Source: a virus. Taken from it: 48,101 nt of DNA. The position numbers and the translations under genes are program-made. Location of the stretch: IMG/VR virus record IMGVR_UViG_3300045918_000141, positions 1 through 48,101 of that record; one strand, given 5' to 3'. Each line of letters opens with the position of its first letter. Positions within the stretch are counted from its first letter, which is position 1. Below are positions 96-45,284 of this stretch, in pieces. A model generated the notes under the pieces. It had not been told where the DNA came from, searched no databases, and saw only the letters and a program-made list of their open reading frames with translations.

Positions 96-1376
96 ATGTC
101 TATATTGAAAGTAGGGTCTAATAACCCCAAGTTGTCTTTTATTTTGTCCAAAAATCCAGCAACCATCCGCACCTCGCTGGAGCCTTTTACAAGAGATCTT
201 CGTAAAGGAAAACTATATGGTTGGTTTAATAAAGCAGATGATTCAGAGTTCAAACTCCTATTTAAGGATTCAGACACTGAAGTCTCTTTTGTAAGTTTTA
301 GCGAATGGGAATACCTTGATAAAACCAGGTACAGCAGCCCATATCTCCCAATAGGCATGGTGACTACTGCATTAGCCTCAGCTCTCAAGAAAGAGAGTGA
401 GTTTGATACACCGGAATTCACTAGCTACGTTGAGACAGTAATCAAGGTTTCAAACCCTAAGATTGCTTCAGCTTGTGCTCGTCACTTCGTGAACATGGCT
501 AAAATCGAGATGGGGATTCTATCCGGACAAATGTACACCATACATATCGAGGGTAACTCGGTACAGACTATTCTGAACGTGATGGTTGTATTCTGTCTCA
601 TTCAGGCTATGTACGATAAAGAGTGTTACATTGACATGAACGCTTCTGCAATCGAGTTCTACATTCGTGCGCTGAACCGTGTCAATGCACCGTACTTCAT
701 CCGTTACCTGTTCAACCGCACCGTGTTCTCGGATAAGCATACGTTCAACACGTATCGTGAAAGTATGCAACTAGCCGGCACTGTGATGAATTATGGTGAC
801 ACTCGCAGACACCGCTTTGATGCAGTGGCCGAGATACTAAAAGGTGGAGAGCGTTTAGTAGACGTTGGATGTGGAGAGTTGTTCTTCTCCAAACGCCTAG
901 CTAAAAAGTATGGCATGGTAGATGCATTTGATGCTGATCCAGTGGTGGCAGAAGACAGCACTGGAAAAGCTAAAGGTTGGGGGCTGGAAAACGTTGTAGT
1001 TACCTGTGAGGAGATCAATGCAGGATATGTTGATACGGCTGCTTATATGCTAGAAGGGGCGGATATCTTACTCACTGAAGTGATTGAGCACATGGAATTG
1101 GATCAAGCCATGTCGTTACTTCGAGCCCTGTTGAAAACCGACTACAACCAGATTGTAATCACCGTTCCTAATAAGGACTTCAACGTCAACTATGACATCT
1201 CAGAAGAAGGCTCTCGTCACAGCGACCATAAGTGGGAACTCGGTACTAGTAAGTTCAGTGAGGTACTGACTCAGCATGGCATCCTCCCAGATGACCTACG
1301 TGGAATTGGTGACAGCGTAGACGGTATCCATTCCTCTATCCTGTTACATTTTAAGAAAAAGGAGGTAATAGCATGA
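96..1376 (+). CDS. hen1: Hen1-type RNA 3'-terminal ribose 2'-O-methyltransferase
   Basis: 426 aa. The C-terminal half is a SAM-dependent methyltransferase with a glycine-rich motif near residues 256-260 (DVGCG). It has the two metal-binding clusters typical of Hen1: E328-V-I-E331-H332 and R-H375-S-D-H378. The first 220 residues align by eye with the bacterial Hen1 N-terminal domain (a KNP-containing stretch near residue 20 and YSSPYLPIGMV near 80); in bacteria this domain activates the Pnkp ligase. Known role of the family: methylates the 2'-OH of the 3' end of a cleaved RNA before ligation, so the repaired bond cannot be cut again. The start has AGGGAG about 7 bases upstream. The stop overlaps the Pnkp start (ATGA), so the two are translationally coupled, as in bacterial RNA repair operons. 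Confidence 0.93.
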   Translation: MSILKVGSNNPKLSFILSKNPATIRTSLEPFTRDLRKGKLYGWFNKADDSEFKLLFKDSDTEVSFVSFSEWEYLDKTRYSSPYLPIGMVTTALASALKKESEFDTPEFTSYVETVIKVSNPKIASACARHFVNMAKIEMGILSGQMYTIHIEGNSVQTILNVMVVFCLIQAMYDKECYIDMNASAIEFYIRALNRVNAPYFIRYLFNRTVFSDKHTFNTYRESMQLAGTVMNYGDTRRHRFDAVAEILKGGERLVDVGCGELFFSKRLAKKYGMVDAFDADPVVAEDSTGKAKGWGLENVVVTCEEINAGYVDTAAYMLEGADILLTEVIEHMELDQAMSLLRALLKTDYNQIVITVPNKDFNVNYDISEEGSRHSDHKWELGTSKFSEVLTQHGILPDDLRGIGDSVDGIHSSILLHFKKKEVIA

Positions 1377-3853
1377 CCGCCGTTGCTTTGAAAAAGAGTC
1401 AAGTTCAGATCTCAGCGCCATTAAACACGGTGTTCATTCTGGCTGGACCTTCTCGTTGTGGTAAGACTACATTCGCTTGGAACTTGGCGGCTGAGTTGGA
1501 GAAGGGATATCTGAAGCTGTTTAATGAGATTAAGGTAGGCCTGCGTCCAGTCTCTGTTCTTACTAGTGATGCTTACCGCAGTGTGCTTACCGGTAAGGAA
1601 ACCCCTAGTTATTGTACTACTGAGATGCAGGAACTGTCTGAGCAAGCTTTCCAACTTCTGTTCGCAGAGTTAAAGGCCTTCACCTCTTTCCCCGTCAATA
1701 CTCCATACGTCATTGTGGACACGACGGGATTGGATCCTTGGTTCCGCAATGAAGTATCTAGGATTGCCAAGGATGCATGTTACCATGTGCAACTAGTCCT
1801 GTTTGACCTGCCTCATTCTGAGTTTTATGACGCTATACCGGAAGGCCGTGAGCACAAGTATCGTGTTGTTATTGCAGCTCAAGCAAAACGATTCAAGACT
1901 GAGGTGATGCCATCTACCCGTTCTAAAGACTACGACGCTGTATATCGTATGCGTCATCGTATCAATCAGAGTCCTAACGTGGAAGGCGGCTTTGTTGTAA
2001 CCGTTGATTCTAACGGGTTGGCCATGTTACCTAACTACACTCTGGAGGGTGATGATACGTTTGTGATAGTAGGTGACGTCCACGAACATAACACCGCTCT
2101 GATGGATATGTTACGGATTGTAGACTCAACCTATACTCATGACAATGTGCGTATAGTACTGATCGGTGACTACTTGGACAAAGGTGGTTTCACTAAGGAG
2201 ATAGTTGACACGGTGTGGACTCTGGTAAACGCCAGGGGTGCCATAGTAGTGCGTGCCAATCATGAGAACTACGTTGTGAAACGTATCCTCGGTGAGATTG
2301 ATCCCAACTTGGACTTAGAAGCTAAATCCTTCAGTTCATTAGGATTCTTGCTCAAGCCGGAAAACCAAGAGTACGCTGATAAGGTGGTAGAGATATGGGC
2401 ACGTTCCGTACCTTACTTGAAGCTAACTCGTATCAACGCTCCAACCGTGTACGTAACTCACGCACCATGCAAGAACGAGTTCATCGGCAAGGTGTCAGAC
2501 TTCGCCCAACGTGAACAACGTAACTTGCGTAGGTTTATGGCTGATGATGCCCGCCCTCATTATGAGTTCTTATTCACTGAAGCTAAGGGTAACCACCCTA
2601 TGCACATAATGGGCCATGTAGCTCATTGTTCTCAGCGGATCAACTATAAGAACAAGTATATGCTGGATACTGGTGCCGTCTACGGAGGTAAGTTATCGGC
2701 AATGGTGATCATGGCTGAACAAGACCGTTTGATTCAAGTTGATTGTGAAAAACTGTTTGAGTACGAGGAAAAGGCTCTTCGTACCGATGCAGTAACTCCG
2801 ATCAAAGTGGAACAAGAGTTCAGTTTGAAACAGTATGACTTGTCGGATGACGACTTGAAGACTCTGCGCAGGTTGGAAAACTCACGAGTGCAGTACGTGT
2901 CTGGTACAATGGCTCCGGCTCGTTCTACCAAGGATGACATCGAGTCCCTAGAAGAGGCATTGAAGTACTTCAAGGACTACGGTGTTGAGGAGGTTGTCAT
3001 TGAGCCTAAGTACATGGGCTCTCGTGGCCAACTCTATCTGTATCGTGATACTCCTGAGAAGTCTTTCGCTGTGTCTCGTAATGGGTATGTAGTTCACCAG
3101 GATGGTATTCAGAAGCTGATCAGTGACGCCTTCGATAAATTCGTTAAACTAGACTTCTGGAAAAGCGAGTTGATCCTAGACTGTGAGCTGATGCCTTGGT
3201 CTCTACTGGGTGCTGGTCTCATTAATAGAGACTTTCAGGCTTACGGTGATCTGGTTCTCAATGAGCTGACTGATTTGGATCATGATGAAGAGCTAGCTAA
3301 ACTCACGTTGCATAAAGAGTTGAAACTGGATGAACGTCAAGAGTTCCTCAATGTCTTCTTTCAACAGTTGGCGTTGTATGGGGAAGTTGGGGAGCCTCAC
3401 GCTAAACCATTCTCAATACTTAGTATTGATGGGGTGGAGCAGGTTACAACCATGAGTGCAGATGAGGCTTACAGCAAGGTCTCTGACGATGAGTTTATCG
3501 TTGTAAACACTGCAGTAGGTTTGCTGGAAGCTCAGGAGTTCTTCAATAAGAAGACTACAGCCGAAGGTATGGAGGGCATCGTAGTTAAGCCTCGTTACTA
3601 CAAGCCGGAAGTTGCACCGTACATGAAGGTTCGGAACAAATCCTACCTCACAATTGTCTACGGTTATGATTTTTGGCTACGTTACGATAAGCTTTGCGAA
3701 CAGAAAAAAACTAATGGTAAAATGCGTACTTCTATCAAGGAGCACGAATTGACCTTGGCTTTGCTGAGCGACAAAGGTGAACGTAGAACCGAACTCATGG
3801 TTAAGATGATTGCTGAGCTGGGTAAGGAAAAAGGTCTGGATCCACGTTTGTAA
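1373..3853 (+). CDS. pnkp: Pnkp: polynucleotide kinase-phosphatase-ligase
   Basis: 826 aa, close to the usual bacterial Pnkp length. Three modules are visible in order. Kinase: P-loop GPSRCGKT with K31, followed by SDAYR. Metallophosphatase: GDVHEH at 234-239, then GDYLDKG, a NHE motif and MGHVAH; the family usually has G-C after GDVH, here E-H. RNA ligase: nucleotidyl lysine K546 in KYMGSR, motif III-like LDCELMPW, motif IV EGMEGIVVK and motif V KVRNKSY. Known role: trims 2',3'-cyclic phosphate ends, phosphorylates 5'-OH ends and, with Hen1, seals broken RNAs such as tRNAs cut by ribotoxins. The start follows a strong AAAGGAGG site and overlaps hen1 by 4 bases. All active-site motifs are present, so it looks functional. 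Confidence 0.95.
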   Translation: MTAVALKKSQVQISAPLNTVFILAGPSRCGKTTFAWNLAAELEKGYLKLFNEIKVGLRPVSVLTSDAYRSVLTGKETPSYCTTEMQELSEQAFQLLFAELKAFTSFPVNTPYVIVDTTGLDPWFRNEVSRIAKDACYHVQLVLFDLPHSEFYDAIPEGREHKYRVVIAAQAKRFKTEVMPSTRSKDYDAVYRMRHRINQSPNVEGGFVVTVDSNGLAMLPNYTLEGDDTFVIVGDVHEHNTALMDMLRIVDSTYTHDNVRIVLIGDYLDKGGFTKEIVDTVWTLVNARGAIVVRANHENYVVKRILGEIDPNLDLEAKSFSSLGFLLKPENQEYADKVVEIWARSVPYLKLTRINAPTVYVTHAPCKNEFIGKVSDFAQREQRNLRRFMADDARPHYEFLFTEAKGNHPMHIMGHVAHCSQRINYKNKYMLDTGAVYGGKLSAMVIMAEQDRLIQVDCEKLFEYEEKALRTDAVTPIKVEQEFSLKQYDLSDDDLKTLRRLENSRVQYVSGTMAPARSTKDDIESLEEALKYFKDYGVEEVVIEPKYMGSRGQLYLYRDTPEKSFAVSRNGYVVHQDGIQKLISDAFDKFVKLDFWKSELILDCELMPWSLLGAGLINRDFQAYGDLVLNELTDLDHDEELAKLTLHKELKLDERQEFLNVFFQQLALYGEVGEPHAKPFSILSIDGVEQVTTMSADEAYSKVSDDEFIVVNTAVGLLEAQEFFNKKTTAEGMEGIVVKPRYYKPEVAPYMKVRNKSYLTIVYGYDFWLRYDKLCEQKKTNGKMRTSIKEHELTLALLSDKGERRTELMVKMIAELGKEKGLDPRL

Positions 3854-3932: not shown

Positions 3933-4187
3933 ATGATTCATGTGAACTTAAAAGAGAAGTGTCTAGTAGATGGAGACACTGGAGAAATTTTACGACCGGA
4001 GTGCTTTGACTACCTGAGTCAATACTGCTCATTCATCGAAGAGCGTGGGCACAAGGGTGCTTCTCAGTCCTTACTACGTCGGGTCTTTGACGGAGAGAAG
4101 GTCATTTCAAAGATGATTGACTTTTACCAGAAACATGAGGCCAAGGGTGATTTCAATCATAGACACCCGTTGCAACCATCTCAATAA
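3933..4187 (+). CDS. Small hypothetical protein
   Basis: 84 aa, with a strong AAAGGAG site about 5 bases before the ATG. It is soluble by composition, with no membrane segment. It starts MIHVNLKEKCLVDGDTGEIL and ends in a His/Pro-rich tail. I do not recognise a family. It directly follows Pnkp and is probably in the same transcription unit, so a role near RNA repair is possible only by position. Confidence 0.75.
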   Translation: MIHVNLKEKCLVDGDTGEILRPECFDYLSQYCSFIEERGHKGASQSLLRRVFDGEKVISKMIDFYQKHEAKGDFNHRHPLQPSQ

Positions 4188-4208
4188 TACGAATATTTGC
4201 GGTATAAG
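4182..4208 (+). promoter_or_regulatory. Phage promoter, GGTATAAG type
   Basis: CTCAATAATA followed by GGTATAAG at 4201-4208, with the TCAA element 19 bases before GGTATAA. The same spacing occurs at 14730, 15109 and 16370. It would drive the gene-free structured region 4210-4620 and then the gene at 4641. Confidence 0.55.
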
Positions 4209-4209
4209 A

Positions 4210-4620
4210 AATTTGTGAGTATAGTATATATCCACTTATCTAAGGCCCATAGTTTCGACTAGTGGTGTTAAAGGTATCGGTGGTGAGTGAAGTGTTACAC
4301 TTTACGGTTACCACTCTTCATCAAAGCACTACCAATTTCCTTCGTCATTGGTAGCAGCAGGTGGAGAGCGAGCTCGAGATCTATTAGTACTTATACTATT
4401 GATAAGCTTCGAAGAGCTAAACCAATTTCCTATCGGAAATCAGTATACACACAAGTTTCAAAGTTTCACCTTTTGTATTTTGTACGTGTACGCACGTCGT
4501 ATAGAGCTACTCTATACTTGGATTGCGCACATCAGCTGAGAACGTCCCTACCAACCTAGGGGTTGTCCGGGCCGTGCTCGAGATGTGCATAAGGCATGAT
4601 GAGAAAAGGCATTAGATTTT
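4210..4620 (+). ncRNA. Candidate structured non-coding RNA region
   Basis: About 410 bases without a credible gene but dense in perfect inverted repeats. 4280-4314: GTGGTGA + GTGAAGTG, loop TTA, returning CACTTTAC + TTACCAC. 4329-4354: CTACCAAT / ATTGGTAG. 4425-4440: ATTTCC-TATC-GGAAAT. 4484-4497: ACGTG-TACG-CACGT. 4499-4517: GTATAGAG-CTA-CTCTATAC. 4546-4561: CCCTA / TAGGG, which competes with CAACC / GGTTG at 4552-4565. The 11-mer ACCAATTTCCT occurs twice (4331 and 4421). A promoter lies just upstream. The two open frames here (90 and 63 codons) lack ribosome-binding sites and run through the stems. The RNA boundaries are not defined by sequence alone. Confidence 0.55.
4499..4517 (+). repeat. 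TAGAG-N3-CTCTA hairpin, copy 1
   Basis: Perfect 8-bp stem GTATAGAG/CTCTATAC with loop CTA. It is preceded, after one base, by a separate 5-bp hairpin (4484-4497). The same layout, hairpin then one base then GTATAGAG-N3-CTCTATAC, recurs at 15962-15997 with a different first hairpin. Confidence 0.8.
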
Positions 4621-4640
4621 TAACTTAACCAGGAGTACGC

Positions 4641-5015
4641 ATGTCTGAAGAAACTGCAGAATTCATCGACCGCATAGTAGAAGGCGTAGATGAGATTGAT
4701 CAAGAGATAATAATGGTTAACCCTGTTATGTCAAAGAAGGAACTCAACGCCCCTTCAAATCCTGTCGAGGATAGATACGGCAGGCCTCGCTGGATTAGAA
4801 CCCGCATGTGTTACTGTAGGGATTCACGTGTAGATTCATGTAACATTATCATGAGAAGTAGTTGTCCTTCGGAAACTTTGGACAAAACTCAACGTACGGC
4901 TGGTAAATGGCTTTGGGCTTCAAACCCGGATTTCAACGCTACTCCAGTGAACGAAGAGGGTGAGTCAGCAGAAGTAGAAGCAACTAACGATTCTGGAACA
5001 ATCGTAATTAGCTAA
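4641..5015 (+). CDS. Hypothetical protein with four clustered cysteines
   Basis: 124 aa. The start has AGGAG about 6 bases upstream. The acidic N-terminus is followed by a basic middle section with CYCRDSRVDSC and RSSCP near residues 57-75, which could bind a metal; the C-terminal 30 residues are acidic and probably disordered. I do not recognise a family. It is followed by a strong hairpin, so it may end its transcription unit. Confidence 0.7.
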   Translation: MSEETAEFIDRIVEGVDEIDQEIIMVNPVMSKKELNAPSNPVEDRYGRPRWIRTRMCYCRDSRVDSCNIIMRSSCPSETLDKTQRTAGKWLWASNPDFNATPVNEEGESAEVEATNDSGTIVIS

Positions 5016-5172: not shown

Positions 5173-7782
5173 ATGGAAATGATAATAGAACAACGAGATA
5201 CAACTCAGGCAGTACAATCAACTTCACAAACAGTTTTTGAAGACGGATTCTCAGAAGAAATCTGGGCCTCTACTTATAAAGACCACAACGATAAAGATGT
5301 AAATGATACGATGTTGCGAGTAGCCACCGCCGTCGCATCAATGGAAAAAACATCAGATTTACAGAGGGAGTGGACGGATAAGTTCTACGACCTACTTAGT
5401 GGATTCAAAGCCACTTCTGGCGGACGCATTTATGCTAACGCGGGAACTGAGTGGAAGTCTACTACTCTTATGAATTGTTATGTTGCTCCAAGGGCCTCAC
5501 ACGATATTGACTCCCTTAACAACATAATGAAGACTCTGAATGATCAGGCTAACACCCTTAAATCAGAGGGTGGCTGGGGGGAGAACTTTAGCTACATACG
5601 TCCTAGAGGATCCTTCATTCATGGTATTGGAGTTGAGTCCCCCGGGGCAGTTAAGTACATGGAGCTGTTTGATAGGGCTTCCGATATCATCACCTCTGGG
5701 TCTGGTAAGAAATCTTCAAATAAAAGAGCTAAGGGTAAGATCCGTAAAGGCGCAATGATGGGAGTTTTAGACTGCTGGCACCCTGACCTTGTAGAATTCA
5801 TTACTGCTAAACAGCAACCCGGCCGCCTGTCTAAGTTTAATATCTCCGTTAATTGTACGGATGAGTTCATGGATAGAGTGGTACGTATTTCTGAACTTGA
5901 ATCTAGCGTAAACGATAGTGCAGCAGAAATCCAGGAATTAGATAAGTGGGACTTAATGTTCCCTGAAACTACTTTTGAAAAGTATAAACAAGAGTGGAAC
6001 GGGGATATAGGCCTGTGGAAATCTAAAGGATATCCTGTGGTTATCCATAACACGGTTTCTGTAAAGTGGTTGTGGAACCTGATCATGGAGTCCACCTACA
6101 ATAGGGCGGAACCTGGTATATTGTTCCTTGACCGTGCTAATTACTATGGCCCTTTGAATTACCTAGAAACCATATTTGCTACGAATCCTTGCGGAGAGCA
6201 AACATTGTCCCCAGGCAACGTATGTAACTTGGGTTCACTAAACCTTGTACACTTCTTGAACAACACAAGAACTGGTTTTGATCTGGAAAAAGTAAAGATG
6301 TACACTGAATACCTGGTAAGATTCTTAGATAACGTAAGTGATTTATCTAAGGCTCCATTACCTGAGTACGAGTTCTCCATGCGCAACAAAAGACGCATTG
6401 GGGTTGGTATTCTTGGGTGGGGCTCAGCATTGTATATGCTCAAGACGAGACTGGGGTCTGAAAAAGCAAACACTATTCGTGAAGACCTTATGAGGACTAT
6501 AGCCCAAACCTCCTACACGTATTCCGTAACCCTTGCAGAAGAAAAAGGCATGTTCCCATTATGTCAACCTGAGAAACACGTAGCCGGGGCTTTTGTTAAG
6601 AGTCTAGGACTACCTCAATCAGTATTGGATAGAATGGGAAAGACTGGTATCCGCAACAGCTCTCTACTGTCTATACAGCCTACTGGAAACACTTCCATAT
6701 TTGCAAACGTAGTGTCCGGAGGTTTAGAGCCGGTTTTCATGCATGAGTATATCCGCACTGTTATAGTTAACGCTATGCCAGATCACATATCTAAAGTAAC
6801 CCCTAGGTGGTTTGAGGGGGAGTGGTTTGAGACAGAGATGTTCAAACTTGCAAAAGAGGGTGATGAGGAAATCCTCCGTGGTATTGACCCTAATGGGATT
6901 GTTTATAAGATAGACAAGAACCGCGGATTAACTAAAGAGGTTCTGTGTGAGGACTACGGAGTCCGATTCATGAAGCGTATTGGTGAGTGGGATCCTACGG
7001 CAGACTGGGCAGCTACCACTGTTAGTATGTCAGTAAACGACCACGTCAATGACCTGACCGGATTTGCTAAGTGGATTGATTCCGCTATGAGCAAGACGGT
7101 TAACGTGCCTAATGAGTATCCGTTCACATCCTTTGGTGACATCTACTTAGATGCGTATAAGTCTAATTATGTGAAGGGCGTAACTACCTACCGGTCTGGA
7201 ACTATGACCTCAGTATTGGCTGCTAAAGATGAGCTTAACGCTGAATCTACTGATGAGGAGATAATCCTTAGTGATGTTAAGTTGCCTGATAGCTCCCCTG
7301 CAACTATGAAGATCCTTAAAGCAGAAGATCGTAAGTGGTACTTGACGATTATCTGGAATGAGGAACAGACTAGACCTTTCGCATTATTTGTGCACACCAA
7401 TAGCCATGAAAAGAGTGTAACTACTACTGGTGCTATGGAGCACTTAGTAGAGCTAGCTAGACGTAAGGGTATTCCCGAACGACACATTGAGGCAACAATG
7501 GATAAGAGCGGGGCAGATAGTAATGCCACTAAGATAGCCAGAGTTATAAGCATGTGTCTAAGACATGGTATTCTGATAAGGAACATTGTTCATACCCTGG
7601 ATCAGGTGGAGGATATCTTTGTGGGATCTTTCCTATTCCAAATTAAGAAGTTCCTATCTACCCTTATTAAAGATGGTGAGAAAGCGGAGGGTCAAAAGTG
7701 TGAGGTATGCGAATCTAGTAACATTATCTACAGCGAAGGATGCCAGAAGTGCGCAGACTGTGGAAGCAGCAAATGCGGCTAA
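5173..7782 (+). CDS. nrdJ: Class II (adenosylcobalamin-type) ribonucleotide reductase
   Basis: 869 aa. It reduces ribonucleotides to deoxyribonucleotides and needs no oxygen or separate radical subunit. The redox cysteine C102 (in LMNCYVAP) and C351 (in GNVCNLGSLNL) would pair. C340 with N338 and E342 (NPCGE) is the thiyl-radical site. The long C-terminal part (ARVISMCLRHGI) and the cysteine-rich end (CEVC, CQKCADC, KCG) match the B12-dependent NrdJ family rather than class Ia. The start is preceded only by AACGAG; the ATG six bases further in is an alternative. It works with ThyX, the deoxyribonucleotidase and the dUTPase in this window to supply dNTPs for phage replication. The host or medium must provide the cofactor. 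Confidence 0.93.
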   Translation: MEMIIEQRDTTQAVQSTSQTVFEDGFSEEIWASTYKDHNDKDVNDTMLRVATAVASMEKTSDLQREWTDKFYDLLSGFKATSGGRIYANAGTEWKSTTLMNCYVAPRASHDIDSLNNIMKTLNDQANTLKSEGGWGENFSYIRPRGSFIHGIGVESPGAVKYMELFDRASDIITSGSGKKSSNKRAKGKIRKGAMMGVLDCWHPDLVEFITAKQQPGRLSKFNISVNCTDEFMDRVVRISELESSVNDSAAEIQELDKWDLMFPETTFEKYKQEWNGDIGLWKSKGYPVVIHNTVSVKWLWNLIMESTYNRAEPGILFLDRANYYGPLNYLETIFATNPCGEQTLSPGNVCNLGSLNLVHFLNNTRTGFDLEKVKMYTEYLVRFLDNVSDLSKAPLPEYEFSMRNKRRIGVGILGWGSALYMLKTRLGSEKANTIREDLMRTIAQTSYTYSVTLAEEKGMFPLCQPEKHVAGAFVKSLGLPQSVLDRMGKTGIRNSSLLSIQPTGNTSIFANVVSGGLEPVFMHEYIRTVIVNAMPDHISKVTPRWFEGEWFETEMFKLAKEGDEEILRGIDPNGIVYKIDKNRGLTKEVLCEDYGVRFMKRIGEWDPTADWAATTVSMSVNDHVNDLTGFAKWIDSAMSKTVNVPNEYPFTSFGDIYLDAYKSNYVKGVTTYRSGTMTSVLAAKDELNAESTDEEIILSDVKLPDSSPATMKILKAEDRKWYLTIIWNEEQTRPFALFVHTNSHEKSVTTTGAMEHLVELARRKGIPERHIEATMDKSGADSNATKIARVISMCLRHGILIRNIVHTLDQVEDIFVGSFLFQIKKFLSTLIKDGEKAEGQKCEVCESSNIIYSEGCQKCADCGSSKCG

Positions 7783-7990
7783 TTCTATAGCCTGGCCAGA
7801 CCTGGAACTGCCTCCTATAAACCTATTATCACTTGGTAGGGAGGATTCTCCTTGTCAAGGTAGGTGTGTGTTGAGAGGTGGAGTATGTGAGGGCTGTCTG
7901 CGAACAAGCGATGAAATAACTGAGTGGACTCTATATGAGCCACATGAGAGGTTACAAGTGTTGAATAGGATTAATGGGGCTAGTAAGTAG
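7760..7990 (+). CDS. DUF1289-like small cysteine protein
   Basis: About 76 aa, with the DUF1289 pattern SPCxGxCxLxxGxCxGCxRTxDEIxxW followed by ER. The pattern starts in the first third of the protein. Members are small predicted metal- or Fe-S-binding proteins of unknown function. No ATG lies after the nrdJ stop, so the start is probably the GTG at 7760 (23 bases inside the nrdJ end, with AGAAG about 10 bases upstream); an ATG at 7673 would mean a 110-base overlap. It is probably translated by coupling to NrdJ. The family call is good, the start uncertain. Confidence 0.75.
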   Translation: MEAANAANSIAWPDLELPPINLLSLGREDSPCQGRCVLRGGVCEGCLRTSDEITEWTLYEPHERLQVLNRINGASK

Positions 7991-9324: not shown

Positions 9325-9403
9325 GGGTCAGTATCACAACCGCCTTCTAAGCGGTAGCCGTGTAACTGGATCAATATAGGTTCGAGTCCTATCTGGCCCC
9401 CCA
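9325..9403 (+). tRNA. tRNA-Arg(UCU)-like, no D-arm in the normal place
   Basis: Acceptor stem GGGTCAG / CTGGCCC (one G-U pair), discriminator C and encoded CCA (9401-9403). Anticodon arm ACCGC-CTTCTAA-GCGGT (9339-9355) with anticodon TCT at 9346-9348. T-arm ATAGG-TTCGAGT-CCTAT (9376-9392). Only 7 bases (TATCACA) separate the acceptor from the anticodon stem, so there is no D-arm. Instead 20 bases follow the anticodon stem. CAC 9335-9337 can pair with GTG 9360-9362 and lengthen the anticodon helix. The string GTGTAACTGGATCA after the anticodon arm resembles a D-arm sequence in the wrong order. It could be a degenerate tRNA, a rearranged one or a decoy. Confidence 0.65.
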
Positions 9404-14821: not shown

Positions 14822-15082
14822 ATGAAAACTCCAAAACTAGCTATTGATGTAAGACAACTCGCAAAAAACACTCGTGTAACTCGTATTGAAAATGGCCTGA
14901 CCGTTAAACACATGGCAGCACGAGTAGGTCTGACTCCAGCAACAATCAAGCGTATCGAAAAAGCAATCACTATTGAAGGTGCTAAGAACTATGTTCCTTC
15001 ATATCGCACGTTGTTCAAACTTGCTAATGCAACTCGTGTTACAGTGCACGAATTCACCAACATGCAGTTAAACTTTAAGTAG
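14822..15082 (+). CDS. XRE/Cro-family transcriptional regulator
   Basis: 86 aa, almost entirely one helix-turn-helix domain: VTRIENGLTVKHMAARVGLTPATIKRIEKA (about 20-49) fits the Cro/C1 type, followed by YRTLFKLANATRVTVHEF, the usual helices 4-5. It probably binds DNA as a dimer. The inverted repeat at 14692 is the obvious candidate site. The ribosome-binding site is weak (GTGAG). Confidence 0.85.
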   Translation: MKTPKLAIDVRQLAKNTRVTRIENGLTVKHMAARVGLTPATIKRIEKAITIEGAKNYVPSYRTLFKLANATRVTVHEFTNMQLNFK

Positions 15083-15089
15083 AATTAAG

Positions 15090-15118
15090 GTCAACTTAAG
15101 CTCTATTTTTGGTATAAG
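15090..15118 (+). promoter_or_regulatory. Phage promoter, TTGGTATAAG type
   Basis: GTCAACTTAAGC, a spacer, then TTGGTATAAG at 15109-15118. It drives the 64-aa gene and probably the non-coding region behind it. AAGCTCTATTTTTGGTATAA here resembles AAGCTCTTTTTTGGTTTAAA at 15494-15513, between the first two structured RNAs. Confidence 0.7.
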
Positions 15119-15170
15119 TATAGTGTAAAGAACTATACCTTCTTAAACGTCAATGTCACCGGGAGACAAA

Positions 15171-15365
15171 ATGACTAAGGTTATCGCTCAATACGACGAG
15201 GTAGTAATACTCGAAGACTCAATTGGTAAATTTCTGTTTTCTCGTAATGATGAAATAGTGGAGTTATCTGAGCCATCGAAGTTACCCATTATTAACGTTC
15301 ACGCAAACATTCCTAATCGAATGTCTTGTAACCTATACAGAGAAGCTGTAGCAATGTTGTCGTAA
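15171..15365 (+). CDS. Small hypothetical protein
   Basis: 64 aa. The ATG at 15171 has GGGAG upstream; the ATG at 15153 has no site and would place that GGGAG inside the gene. It is soluble and strand-rich at the start (KVIAQYDEVVILEDSIGKFLFS). No family is recognised. It lies between a strong promoter and the structured RNA region. Confidence 0.65.
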   Translation: MTKVIAQYDEVVILEDSIGKFLFSRNDEIVELSEPSKLPIINVHANIPNRMSCNLYREAVAMLS

Positions 15366-15380
15366 TAGAAAACCGACAAA

Positions 15381-15505
15381 GGCGGGTGTCGTGGATGCGC
15401 TCTGATCATAGCGCGTCCAACTCCTGTGGGGTGTAAGAATGGGCTTCGGCCTAAGAGCGCACCTTGTCTGAGACCTCCCTCTCAGATCCCGCCAAGCTCT
15501 TTTTT
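15381..15505 (+). ncRNA. Candidate structured RNA 1, four-way junction
   Basis: Closing stem GGCGGG (15381-15386) / CCCGCC (15488-15493). Arm 1: TGGATGCGCT / AGCGCGTCCA (15392-15419), 10 bp. Arm 2: GGTGT / GCACC (15430-15463) topped by GGC-TTCG-GCC (15442-15451), a stable UUCG tetraloop. Arm 3: TCTGAGA / TCTCAGA (15467-15486), 7 bp. Six Us follow at 15500-15505, so the RNA could end by intrinsic termination. It has no CCA end and no tRNA-type loops, and I do not recognise it as RNase P, 6S or tmRNA. Pairing is from direct inspection only. Confidence 0.7.
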
Positions 15506-15513
15506 GGTTTAAA

Positions 15514-15725
15514 TGAACAAAGGTCAGTTTAGTAATCTGAGCAGTATTGGAGTAGAGAAACTCTACTCTAGGTTTACTGCGACCGAAAGGTGTCTACTAC
15601 GTATCCACCTGAAGATCGCAAAACGACAGAAACTGGGACGTCTCCAGGGACCGTGGTCCAACCGGTGCCGGGCGGACCGCGGGATCCGGCATTCCAAATT
15701 CTGTGAGTGATCTGACCTTTGTTTA
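15514..15725 (+). ncRNA. Candidate structured RNA 2, closed by a 14-bp stem
   Basis: Bases 15514-15527 pair with 15712-15725 over 14 bp (one G-U). Inside: an 11-bp hairpin centred on GAGTAGAG-AAA-CTCTACTC (15550-15568); TGCGA / TCGCA (15578-15620) enclosing AGGTG / CACCT and a GAAA tetraloop candidate; and GGTGCCGG / CCGGCATT (15664-15693) enclosing GCG-GAC-CGC. The GC-rich part (15635-15692) stands out from the AT-leaning surroundings. A 65-codon open frame here has no ribosome-binding site and follows the stems, so I treat it as non-coding. The RNA type is unknown. Confidence 0.7.
15550..15568 (+). repeat. TAGAG-N3-CTCTA hairpin, copy 2
   Basis: GAGTAGAG-AAA-CTCTACTC, perfect 8 bp, extendable to 11 bp with G-U pairs (15547-15571). 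It lies inside structured RNA 2. Confidence 0.8.
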
Positions 15726-15738
15726 ACACGCATGTTCA

Positions 15739-15960
15739 CGTATAAGAACCTTACTATATAAAGGTGAGTAGAGTAACTCTGCTCTATAACTCTTTACTCA
15801 CTCAGATTGTCGTCTACGACGACGGCACTGAGTGCACGCAGGATCCTGAAGAAGACATGTAGTTTCTTCAGCTGCGGACCCGGTTCGGATGACGGAGGGC
15901 CCCAGAAGCGCATGAGGTGAACAGCAACAGCAACACCAGTTGTAGAAACATGTTCGTGTA
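15739..15960 (+). ncRNA. Candidate structured RNA 3, possible alternative folds
   Basis: Copy 3 of the 19-nt hairpin (15766-15784) competes with a longer 11-bp pairing of 15763-15773 with 15792-15802. Further stems: GTCGTC-TAC-GACGAC (15809-15823), GCAC-TGA-GTGC (15825-15835), and CGCAG + CTGAAGAA / TTCTTCAG + CTGCG (15837-15876). The 5' part, CATGTTC..GTAT..GAAC at 15731, is echoed at 15949 before copy 4, so this and the next unit look like diverged duplicates. CGTATAAG at 15739-15746 might be a promoter -10. Boundaries are uncertain. Confidence 0.6.
15766..15784 (+). repeat. TAGAG-N3-CTCTA hairpin, copy 3
   Basis: GAGTAGAG-TAA-CTCTGCTC, 8 bp with one T-G pair. That change keeps the pairing, which favours selection on RNA structure. 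Confidence 0.75.
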
Positions 15961-16160
15961 TGGAACTAGAAAGTTCCTGTATAGAGTAACTCTATACTTT
16001 TAACTTTCACCAACCGCTGGTTACCTCCGTTTTTATACTAAAAACTACGGATACCAGCTACTGGTGAGATATCTACTGCAGACATCCCAGCAGAGTCAGA
16101 AACATGAGACGAACAAAATTGAGCAATAACGTATGGGGGTTGGAATCGCCTGTACGACTC
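15949..16160 (+). ncRNA. Candidate structured RNA 4
   Basis: Starts with CATGTTCGTGTATGGAAC, a near copy of the start of RNA 3. Stems: GGAACT-AGAA-AGTTCC (15962-15977); copy 4 of the 19-nt hairpin (15979-15997); CCGT+TTTT / AAAA+ACGG (16027-16050); ACCAG-CTA-CTGGT (16053-16065). It is followed by the strong terminator at 16163. The minus-strand open frame across 16038-16277 is not credible because it runs through this terminator. Confidence 0.55.
15979..15997 (+). repeat. TAGAG-N3-CTCTA hairpin, copy 4
   Basis: GTATAGAG-TAA-CTCTATAC; the stem is identical to copy 1, 11.5 kb away, while the loop differs (TAA versus CTA). One base separates it from the preceding hairpin, as in copy 1. Confidence 0.8.
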
Positions 16161-16162
16161 AT

Positions 16163-16216
16163 TAGACCACACTAAGCAATCCTCTACTTGAAGTGATTGT
16201 CGTGGTCTATTTTTAT
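16163..16216 (+). terminator. Strong intrinsic terminator of the RNA region
   Basis: TAGACCAC (16163-16170) pairs perfectly with GTGGTCTA (16202-16209). An inner stem GCAATC / GATTGT (16175-16200) extends it, and TTTTT follows. It would end the transcript or transcripts carrying the structured RNAs. Confidence 0.8.
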
Positions 16217-16357
16217 AACCAACCATGTTTAAACGACGTATAACATATCTAGGAGCTCTCGGAATCCGGTGGGCCATGACGAATGTTCAAGATAAGTTAA
16301 ACGTTGTTAAAACGTGTTTAAAAGGGTTCTGGCAACAGGCTCTTTTTTAGTTCAATT
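16217..16357 (+). other. Spacer with a second terminator-like hairpin
   Basis: Beyond the terminator I see a 41-codon frame (16225-16350) without a ribosome-binding site, and a second hairpin AGGGTTCTG-GCAA-CAGGCTCTT (16323-16344, one mismatch) followed by six Ts at 16343-16348. The latter probably insulates the next promoter. Confidence 0.4.
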
Positions 16358-16379
16358 AAGGACCTCGTTTTGGTATAAC
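16350..16379 (+). promoter_or_regulatory. Phage promoter, TTGGTATAAC type
   Basis: GTTCAATTAAGG, a spacer, then TTGGTATAAC at 16370-16379; the spacing is identical to other copies. It drives the membrane-protein, DHH, DUF6378 and dUTPase run. Confidence 0.7.
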
Positions 16380-16446
16380 GTAGGTACGATTAATTTAGAT
16401 ATAGGAGCATATTTTGAAACTCACACAACATCAAAGGAGGCTGAAC

Positions 16447-16692
16447 ATGCATAGGCCAGAAGACAACTACATTCCAGCAGATCCCCCCAATATATACCGA
16501 GCTACCTTCATTAGTAGCATTAAAAACAAAGTACTACGTAGATTTATGATGATAACGTCACTGCCGGCCATGATAGCATTCAACATAACAATGCCCTTAG
16601 TAGGTGCCATCCTCTCCTCCATTATGATCTTCATTGTTTCCGTGATGGAGAACGTGGAAACACTTTTTAAAAGCTTTAAGGAGAAATGGTAA
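16447..16692 (+). CDS. Small membrane protein
   Basis: 81 aa from the ATG at 16447, which has a near-perfect AAAGGAGG site; a TTG at 16414 with AGGAG is an alternative that adds 11 residues. It has one or two hydrophobic helices (about residues 33-70: MMITSLPAMIAFNITMPLVG then AILSSIMIFIVSVM) and a charged C-terminus. No family is recognised. Its stop overlaps the next start as TAATG. Confidence 0.7.
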   Translation: MHRPEDNYIPADPPNIYRATFISSIKNKVLRRFMMITSLPAMIAFNITMPLVGAILSSIMIFIVSVMENVETLFKSFKEKW

Positions 16693-17561
16693 TGACGACA
16701 GTAGTACTATACCACGGTAACTGTTTAGACGGCACTGGTGCCAAGTATGCGGCGTGGAAGAAGTTAGGTGATAGGGCCACATATATCCCAGTACAGTACG
16801 GGAATAACTCTATACCTCCTGAGGTAGAAAACTCTGCTGGCCTGACTGTATTTGTATTGGACTTCTCATATCCTAAGGACATCCTGTTAAGTCTTCGTGC
16901 TAAACATAAGTCTGTGACTGTAATTGATCACCATAAGACGGCAGAGGCTGACCTTATAGGAATGCCAGACTGTGTGTTTGACATGACTAAGTCTGGTGCT
17001 GTTCTAGCCTGGGAATACTTCCACGGTAAGAAAAAAATTCCTGCAATCTTGTTACACGTCCAAGACCGTGATCTATGGCAGTGGAAGCTTGCTAAGACCA
17101 AGGAAATTACTACCGGGCTCTCTACGTTGAATGGTAGTGTCTTATTGTGGGATTCTACACTGATCAATGATTTACTGGCCGTAGGTGAGGTGCTCTGTGA
17201 GTATACTGACTCAAAGGTAGACTCTACTACTAAACCAGATAGGGTACGTAAGGTGACTATGTTATTCAAAGGTAGGCCTTACATGGTGGGTATTTTAAAC
17301 GTCACAGAAAACGTATCCGAGATAAATCAGGCTATGTACACCAAAGACCCTTCATTAGACTTCACTATGACCTACTTCATTGGACCCCATAATGACGTGG
17401 TAATGTCATTCCGGTCAGACGGTAGTAAGGAGAACGCCTTTGATGTATCGGCACTTGCAAAGGTTTTTGGTGGTGGTGGACATCACACTGCCGCCGGAGG
17501 CAGGACTAGTCTAACTATCCTGGAGAAGATTCTAAATGGGTCTAAAGACTTGGCTTTATAG
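16692..17561 (+). CDS. DHH/DHHA1-family phosphoesterase
   Basis: 289 aa; the ATG at 16692 is 8 bases from AAGGAG (the ATG at 16686 is too close). Metal-binding motifs: D13 in GNCLDG, D57 in VLDF and D79-H80-H81. The DHHA1 motif GGGGHHTAAGG lies near residue 260. The order and spacing match DHH phosphoesterases that cleave short oligonucleotides or cyclic dinucleotides (NrnA/GdpP/RecJ group). At this length without extra domains it is more like an oligoribonuclease than RecJ. Possible roles are nanoRNA recycling or removal of nucleotide signals used in host defence; the sequence does not decide. Confidence 0.85.
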   Translation: MTTVVLYHGNCLDGTGAKYAAWKKLGDRATYIPVQYGNNSIPPEVENSAGLTVFVLDFSYPKDILLSLRAKHKSVTVIDHHKTAEADLIGMPDCVFDMTKSGAVLAWEYFHGKKKIPAILLHVQDRDLWQWKLAKTKEITTGLSTLNGSVLLWDSTLINDLLAVGEVLCEYTDSKVDSTTKPDRVRKVTMLFKGRPYMVGILNVTENVSEINQAMYTKDPSLDFTMTYFIGPHNDVVMSFRSDGSKENAFDVSALAKVFGGGGHHTAAGGRTSLTILEKILNGSKDLAL

Positions 17562-44513: not shown

Positions 44514-45284
44514 TTAGTACATCTTAATGTCAGTTTTAATACCTTTAATTTTCTCTACAAGTTTAGATTTAAGGTAGTTTAATCTGTTAATGTTAACCCC
44601 CAGTTTGTCAGCCAACTGAGTAGCGGTCATGCCTTTAGCATGGTTCAAGATATATTTTTCCTCGCTAGAGAGTTGATCCATCAAGTGGGCCATGAGAATA
44701 GCGTTCTCGTTAAACGAGGTAAACTCATTAGGGCGCTCAGTGTTAGACTCAATAAGGTCGGAGTACAATGAGTTCTTAAATTTGATTGTGTGGCCTTTAC
44801 TCCAACCTAAATGCTTAGCCAACTCATCGTCAGACGGCTCACGATTAAGCTGTTCGGTGAGCTGTGCAAGTCCATGATTATACTCATGAAACTTCAGCTG
44901 CATGTTCTCAGGAAGCCTTACGGCGTTCTGGAACTTGTAGTTCATACGCCTCACCTTAGGTAGGTAGTTCATGACGTGGGTGGAGATGGTAGTGCCACGA
45001 GCAGGGTCGTATGTTTGTATAGCTTTAATCGTCCACTTCTTAGCCTCAGCAGATAGGGCTGCAGGAGGTAGACTACCGGAAAGTCTGTTCACTTCGGACT
45101 TGATAACGGGGCTTAGGCTCTCTACCAAATTACCTAGGTCACGTTTACTACCCGTCTTCTTCCAAGACTCAAACATATCCTGGTCACGCTTACGTGCTTC
45201 AGAATAGTTAAATGGGACTCTTTCAGGAATGAGTGCCTCAGTAGCTGGGTTAAGTGGTAGTGGGGCAAAAGACACTTTGATCAT
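44514..45284 (-). CDS. Sigma-70-family RNA polymerase sigma factor
   Basis: 256 aa. Region 2 is recognisable in YDPARGTTISTHVMNYLPKVRRM (about 93-115), then region 3-type VRLPENMQLKFHEYNHGL...LNREPSDDELAKHLGWS, and region 4 LSSEEKYILNHAKGMTATQLADKLGVNINRLNYLKSKLVEKI near the C-terminus. It probably redirects host polymerase to phage late promoters. The ATGA overlap with the upstream gene shows it is made with the virion operon, which is unusual for a late regulator. The host contacts are not visible here. Confidence 0.8.
   Translation of the reverse strand: MIKVSFAPLPLNPATEALIPERVPFNYSEARKRDQDMFESWKKTGSKRDLGNLVESLSPVIKSEVNRLSGSLPPAALSAEAKKWTIKAIQTYDPARGTTISTHVMNYLPKVRRMNYKFQNAVRLPENMQLKFHEYNHGLAQLTEQLNREPSDDELAKHLGWSKGHTIKFKNSLYSDLIESNTERPNEFTSFNENAILMAHLMDQLSSEEKYILNHAKGMTATQLADKLGVNINRLNYLKSKLVEKIKGIKTDIKMY

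Follow-up and report, generated by a model that had tools for sequence, protein, structure and literature searches.

An apparently new family of modular non-coding RNAs in uncultured large phages, at a locus shared with Ro60 and Y RNA genes

The window analysed here is a 48,101-nt stretch of DNA from a virus. Within it, region 15366-16220 is bounded by the stop of a small ORF (15365) and by a terminator. Its parts are a leader with a pseudoknot (U1), a tandem of three homologous modules (U2, U3 and U4) and the terminator. The features of this locus, together with a solitary module found elsewhere in the window (X), are listed in the following.

14822-15082, plus strand: HTH_3 gene, directly upstream of the locus
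15109-15117, plus strand: promoter-like sequence TTGGTATAA (putative function), preceding both the small ORF and the RNA array
15171-15365, plus strand: small ORF of about 64 aa when counted from its ATG at 15171 (start of the listed ORF at 15153), directly 5' of the RNA
15374-15505, plus strand: U1, an H-type pseudoknot enclosing three inner hairpins, with a U6 tract after it
15516-15723, plus strand: U2, first module; P1 formed by 15522-15531 with 15708-15717, triloop hairpin at 15550-15568
15733-15923, plus strand: U3, second module; P1 UGUUCAC/GUGAACA, GUAU, triloop hairpin at 15766-15784, CAUGAG
15951-16115, plus strand: U4, third module; P1 UGUUCGU/ACGAACA, GUAU, triloop hairpin at 15979-15997, CAUGAG
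16163-16215, plus strand: intrinsic-type terminator, UAGACCAC/GUGGUCUA stem, then UUUUU
16686-17561, plus strand: gene for a DHH-type phosphoesterase, downstream; a syntenic marker of the locus
4469-4609, plus strand: X, fourth and solitary module; P1 CCUUUU/AAAAGG, GUAU, triloop hairpin at 4499-4517, GAUGAG

Region 15366-16220 is non-coding and strongly structured. Its 855 nt fold at -312 kcal/mol as compared to -246 +/- 6 in 20 dinucleotide shuffles (z = -10.9), whereas z was -1.9 and -1.5 for two comparably long unannotated gaps of Salmonella phage Arash, both of which turned out to hold minus-strand ORFs. The sole plus-strand ORF of at least 60 aa within the region (15513-15710, 65 aa) lacks an obvious ribosome-binding site, and L002 does not share its start codon; L002 is one of the two nearest relatives of the window virus (the other, L003, is partial). 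Across the region the window and L002 align with 60% identity, and the structure conservation index of this pair is 0.58 versus 0.37 +/- 0.03 (maximum 0.42) in 20 column shuffles. A preliminary description of the sequence had proposed structured RNAs in place of a protein and at least four units, and both proposals are confirmed, with U1 and the mutually homologous U2-U4 preceding the terminator.

The search against Rfam that had been suggested for a known RNA family was carried out and matched none: nothing reached the gathering score in 15366-16220, and nothing meaningful appeared at E-values up to 10 in 15360-16380. Specifically, the region did not match the Rfam models of GOLLD, ROOL or other large RNAs, neither ARAGORN nor Rfam called a tRNA or tmRNA within it, and blastn against phage isolates gave no match. 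The earlier view that this is neither an ordinary leader nor a recognisable known RNA stands, and the RNAs are kept at one and the same locus across five phage lineages. Elsewhere in the window Rfam gave a tRNA match at 9325-9400 (plus strand, 36.7 bits) that was not called by ARAGORN; by eye this is tRNA-Arg(UCU)-like, with normal acceptor, anticodon and T arms and without a standard D arm.

Modules U2-U4 are 165-210 nt long and their triloop hairpins are spaced by 216 and 213 nt. Their order of elements, which is clearest in U3 and U4, is P1, GUAU, a hairpin, an 8-bp hairpin with a 3-nt loop, P3, variable helices, CAUGAG and P1'. U2 deviates in its flanking motifs (GUAA and GUGAG for GUAU and AUGAG) and extends its P1 by pairing 15516-15521 with 15718-15723. 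UUCG and GAAA tetraloops had been singled out as candidates; these are not conserved, being UUAG and GAUA in L002, and the conserved loop is instead the one of three bases on the 8-bp stem. A hammerhead-like reading of the GUA...AUGAG motifs was dropped because the element order fits no circular permutation. The fourth module, X, was detected with a covariance model of U3 and U4 that pointed to 4499-4524; it lies outside the originally proposed interval. Stretch 4188-4640 has a folding z of -3.7 and no meaningful family match in Rfam. Directly upstream of X, positions 4200-4430 (plus strand) form a further structured intergenic stretch, located behind a promoter-like site CGGTATAAG.

The leader U1 has two pseudoknot stems (15374-15378 with 15387-15391, and 15381-15386 with 15488-15493), and double compensating changes in L002 support both of them and one of the inner hairpins. 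U1 was found only in the window virus and L002, both with a covariance model (R1, 74 records) and with a DNA pattern searched in viral contigs, where additional matches in L061, L063, L064 and L065 were considered chance as their surroundings contain nothing else of U1. At 15494-15505 (plus strand) we noticed by eye an alternative pairing between AAGAGC, a conserved part of the third inner stem, and GCUCUU in the tail just ahead of the U tract, and U1 might for this reason be a switchable terminator ahead of the modules. The intrinsic terminator that had been described for the end of the region holds up as a hairpin with T run at 16163-16215 whose stem covaries in L002 (GGCUAUCA/UGAUAGUC); it was missed by the mechanical scan, which permits only short loops.

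Compensating changes support the pairs of both P1 and the triloop hairpin. For 12 module cores from four lineages, in which P1 and hairpin columns were joined, 95.8% of the cells pair and double changes occur at 10 of 14 pairs. The covariation score of these hand-excerpted, related sequences, among which the window modules had first been recognised partly through their pairing, is 0.671 as compared to 0.231 +/- 0.033 in shuffles (0 of 500 reach it) and to at most 0.136 in slid controls. A descriptor, run over material that took in D181, G060 and G004 in full and almost the whole of Vibrio phage RYC, gave nine matches in 1.85 million strand-bases, all of them in arrays or X, where a Markov null gives 1 per 1.5 million. 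Evidence independent of the pairing-based recognition came from matches picked solely by GTAT and the hairpin core: in these, P1 closed in the arrays and nowhere else.

We define the module family by a P1 beside GUAU and AUGWG that encloses a triloop hairpin with 7 or more bp, with a length of 140-200 nt and a position in a non-coding array. U3, U4, X and the modules of L002, L003, G004, G060, G063, G068, G071 and G072 belong here, with looser members being U2 (GUAA, GUGAG), units a of G063, G068 and G072 (P1 mismatches) and modules of G004 (GUCU or GUAA). Several candidates were rejected: a hairpin-only pattern TATAGAGNNACTCTATA found 64 stretches in which P1 closed only in the window phage and L002/L003, a descriptor match in L024 is an inverted repeat between converging gene ends and no module, pattern matches in L289-L291 lie within long coding frames, and weak matches to model R2 in L101 and L209 overlap long ORFs.

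The window virus is also represented by contigs G001 and G046, and its sigma-like protein (44514-45284) is a good marker for related phages. In total, the locus is kept in five lineages of uncultured large phages, in which an HTH gene, an ORF of about 60 aa, the module array and the terminator follow each other; in all other lineages HTH_3 homologs were found shortly before the array, and every lineage seen has a similar small ORF ahead of it. The small protein of the window has no convincing match among phage isolates; it matches a protein of Vibrio phage RYC (L304) at E = 0.002, and no module was found in the RYC genome.

The U3/U4 model also matched in G067/G068, shortly before a TROVE gene, and DNA patterns added lineages G071, G072 and G073. 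TROVE genes encode Ro60, which deals with defective RNA and has Y RNAs as its partners. Modules lie immediately 5' of TROVE genes in G060/G062/G063, G067/G068, G071, G072 and G073. In these phages the HTH gene and the small ORF come first, followed by unit z, about eight Y RNAs, units a and b, the terminator and the TROVE gene; the DHH gene comes last on contigs that extend far enough. In three of the five lineages a Y RNA array precedes the last two modules and the Ro60 gene stands right behind them. By position, U2-U3-U4 are equivalent to z-a-b. The descriptor identified unit z in G068; in G063 and G060 it was recognised from its stem sequence and in G071 by eye, and in G072 it was not found. 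In the RNA array of G072, a coding insert with an HNH-endonuclease-like ORF (by eye) lies between Y RNAs and unit a (L256, around 7467-7896).

The Y RNAs of the relatives match Rfam YrlA with E-values of 5e-7 and 1e-6, below the curated cut-off, and several of them contain T-arm and D-arm sequences in permuted order. Bacterial Y RNAs are likewise permuted in these arms. The motif G-CCG..GGUUAUC, the form that the conserved Ro60-binding strand takes in the relatives' Y RNAs, occurs in 8, 8 and 6 copies in L223, L250 and L256. The arrays upstream of TROVE in these records (L223 9591-10530, L250 2352-3310 and L256 6589-7440) hold about 6-8 Y RNAs per phage, only some of which score significantly with YrlA; Y RNA arrays of this size may merit a separate study.

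The window phage itself showed no TROVE gene, either by Pfam or with an HMM of the relatives' TROVE proteins, in G000, G001 and G046, which together comprise about 162 kb of a genome that may be somewhat larger. The Y motif is absent from the window, with two isolated matches without outer stem in the phage's other contig, and the Y RNA and YrlA models (RF00019 and RF02553) matched neither 15360-16380 nor 4180-4645, although the identical search does find YrlA in the arrays of the relatives. The 168-kb contig G004 is similar in this respect: Pfam detected no TROVE in it, and yet it has an HTH gene followed by the small ORF, a set of exactly three modules and the terminator. Its hairpins (GAAGGTTG-AAA-CGACCTTC, GAAGGGTG-CAA-CGCCCTTC and GTAGGATG-CAC-CGTCCTAC) have quite different sequences and the same architecture, with a folding z of -4.8. 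Since both phages carry three modules without detectable Ro60 or Y RNAs, a phage Ro60 does not appear to be required, and it is through the neighbourhood only that the modules are tied to RNA quality control.

The window phage does encode an overlapping gene pair for Hen1 (96-1376, PF22032, 1.7e-46) and Pnkp (1373-3853, PF16542, 5e-26) on the plus strand. The preliminary description was correct in ascribing both to the phage, and they constitute a complete-looking RNA repair cassette of bacterial type (96-3853). That description also offered decoys, host regulators and Hen1-Pnkp substrates as roles for the RNAs, and these are hypothetical candidates. The presence of Ro60 and Y RNAs in three lineages and of Hen1-Pnkp in the window phage suggests that the locus is connected to the quality control or repair of RNA. 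In large phages, TROVE proteins have been interpreted as RNA-repair platforms (PMC7824862), and a Listeria phage was described to produce abundant RNAs, putatively Y RNAs, near an Rsr gene (PMC12282133).

Taken as a non-coding RNA family of phages that is separate from the Rfam families, the modules are well supported, and with no description of such modules found in the open-access literature the family appears to be new. Most likely, the modules are RNA parts, either scaffolds or tethers, of ribonucleoproteins (RNPs) in an RNA quality-control or repair locus; the combined reading of a new family acting in this way is one that we put forward tentatively. The small ORF, the pseudoknotted leader, three independently folding modules and the intrinsic-type terminator would form one transcript, which would be produced from the TTGGTATAAG promoter and cut into single modules within the linkers. 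Each module would then assemble with a protein, possibly the small conserved one, and the resulting RNP might serve in RNA maintenance. As to the promoter, TGGTATAAG of the promoter-like site is kept in L002 and TTTGGTATAAG is present at the equivalent place in G004. TTGGTATAA might be a promoter of the phage's own sigma-like factor. It occurs in four copies on the plus strand of the window (9023, 14730, 15109 and 16370; 1.0 expected by chance), such copies often precede transcription units, and similar TGGTATAAT sites are found ahead of the relatives' Y RNAs.

The strongest alternative is an autonomous RNA family with a function unrelated to Ro60, in which the modules would form an RNP with the protein of about 60 aa or bind and block a host factor, and in which Ro60 and the Y RNAs would merely be co-located. 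The small ORF and the modules co-occur in every lineage while Ro60 is present in some only, and G004 and the window phage carry three modules without it. However, in three lineages the modules stand directly 5' of TROVE and are interspersed with Y RNAs, which would be a strong coincidence if the two were unrelated. We regard this alternative as possible and somewhat doubtful; the likelihood of an autonomous RNP with the small conserved protein comes close to that of a role in RNA quality control or repair. Put more broadly, the modules could represent a phage-specific modular RNA class, independent of Ro60 and all described families, that forms a new RNP with the small protein or a host factor during infection, an idea we consider with some reserve.

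The remaining explanations are less likely. By the features tested, the modules are not Y RNAs, and it is improbable that they are aberrant Y RNAs acting as direct Ro60 ligands, which would bind a host Ro60/Rsr where the phage has none. Like Y RNAs (RF02553 YrlA) with Ro60/Rsr (PF05731 TROVE), they are tandem structured RNAs by a Ro60 gene and, in three lineages, even part of the same array and locus; yet they match no Y RNA family, lack the G-CCG..GGUUAUC motif of their neighbours in these arrays as well as any tRNA-like portion, reach about twice the length, have junction motifs of their own in a plan (P1-GUAU..AUGAG-P1') unlike that of Y RNAs, and also occur in phages without detectable Ro60.

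Even less probable is a single ornate RNA of about 850 nt that forms an RNA-only assembly like GOLLD or ROOL. These are likewise large, intricate non-coding RNAs found in phages, their role being unknown, and the units of the window are contiguous and add up to a similar size. Unlike them, the modules have no match in Rfam, are small and repeated, and also occur singly. The solitary X, together with the Y RNAs lying between the first and second modules of the TROVE lineages, argues that modules can stand alone and are not pieces of one obligate large RNA. We find it highly implausible that the palindromic hairpins act as DNA, serving as operators for the neighbouring HTH protein, despite the adjacent HTH_3 gene in all lineages and their near-perfect inverted repeats, since U-G in place of U-A in 4 of 12 hairpins and G-U pairs among the covarying P1 positions break the DNA symmetry and keep the RNA pairing, the hairpin sequences vary widely between lineages, and P1, P3 and the U1 pseudoknot would be left unexplained.

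Two further phage RNAs invite comparison. The packaging RNA (pRNA) of the phi29 type is a compact multi-helix phage RNA similar in size to a module; the modules differ by having no Rfam match and by lying at a different locus, and nothing in our data points to a packaging role. ToxI of type III toxin-antitoxin systems consists of tandem RNA repeats beside a small gene; these repeats precede the toxin gene and are short, each a pseudoknot of about 36 nt, whereas the modules are several times longer and located after the small ORF.

The modules add a strongly covarying structured RNA family to the few known in phages, and they mark a conserved phage locus in which Ro60, Y RNA arrays and modules come and go. 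This locus provides a natural comparison with and without Ro60 for the purpose of the phage Ro60/Y RNA machinery, and it raises the question of why a phage with Hen1-Pnkp keeps the RNA modules and yet shows no Ro60. Phage Ro60/Y RNA loci are the sole functional anchor for the modules; should these work without any Ro60, they would constitute a new class.
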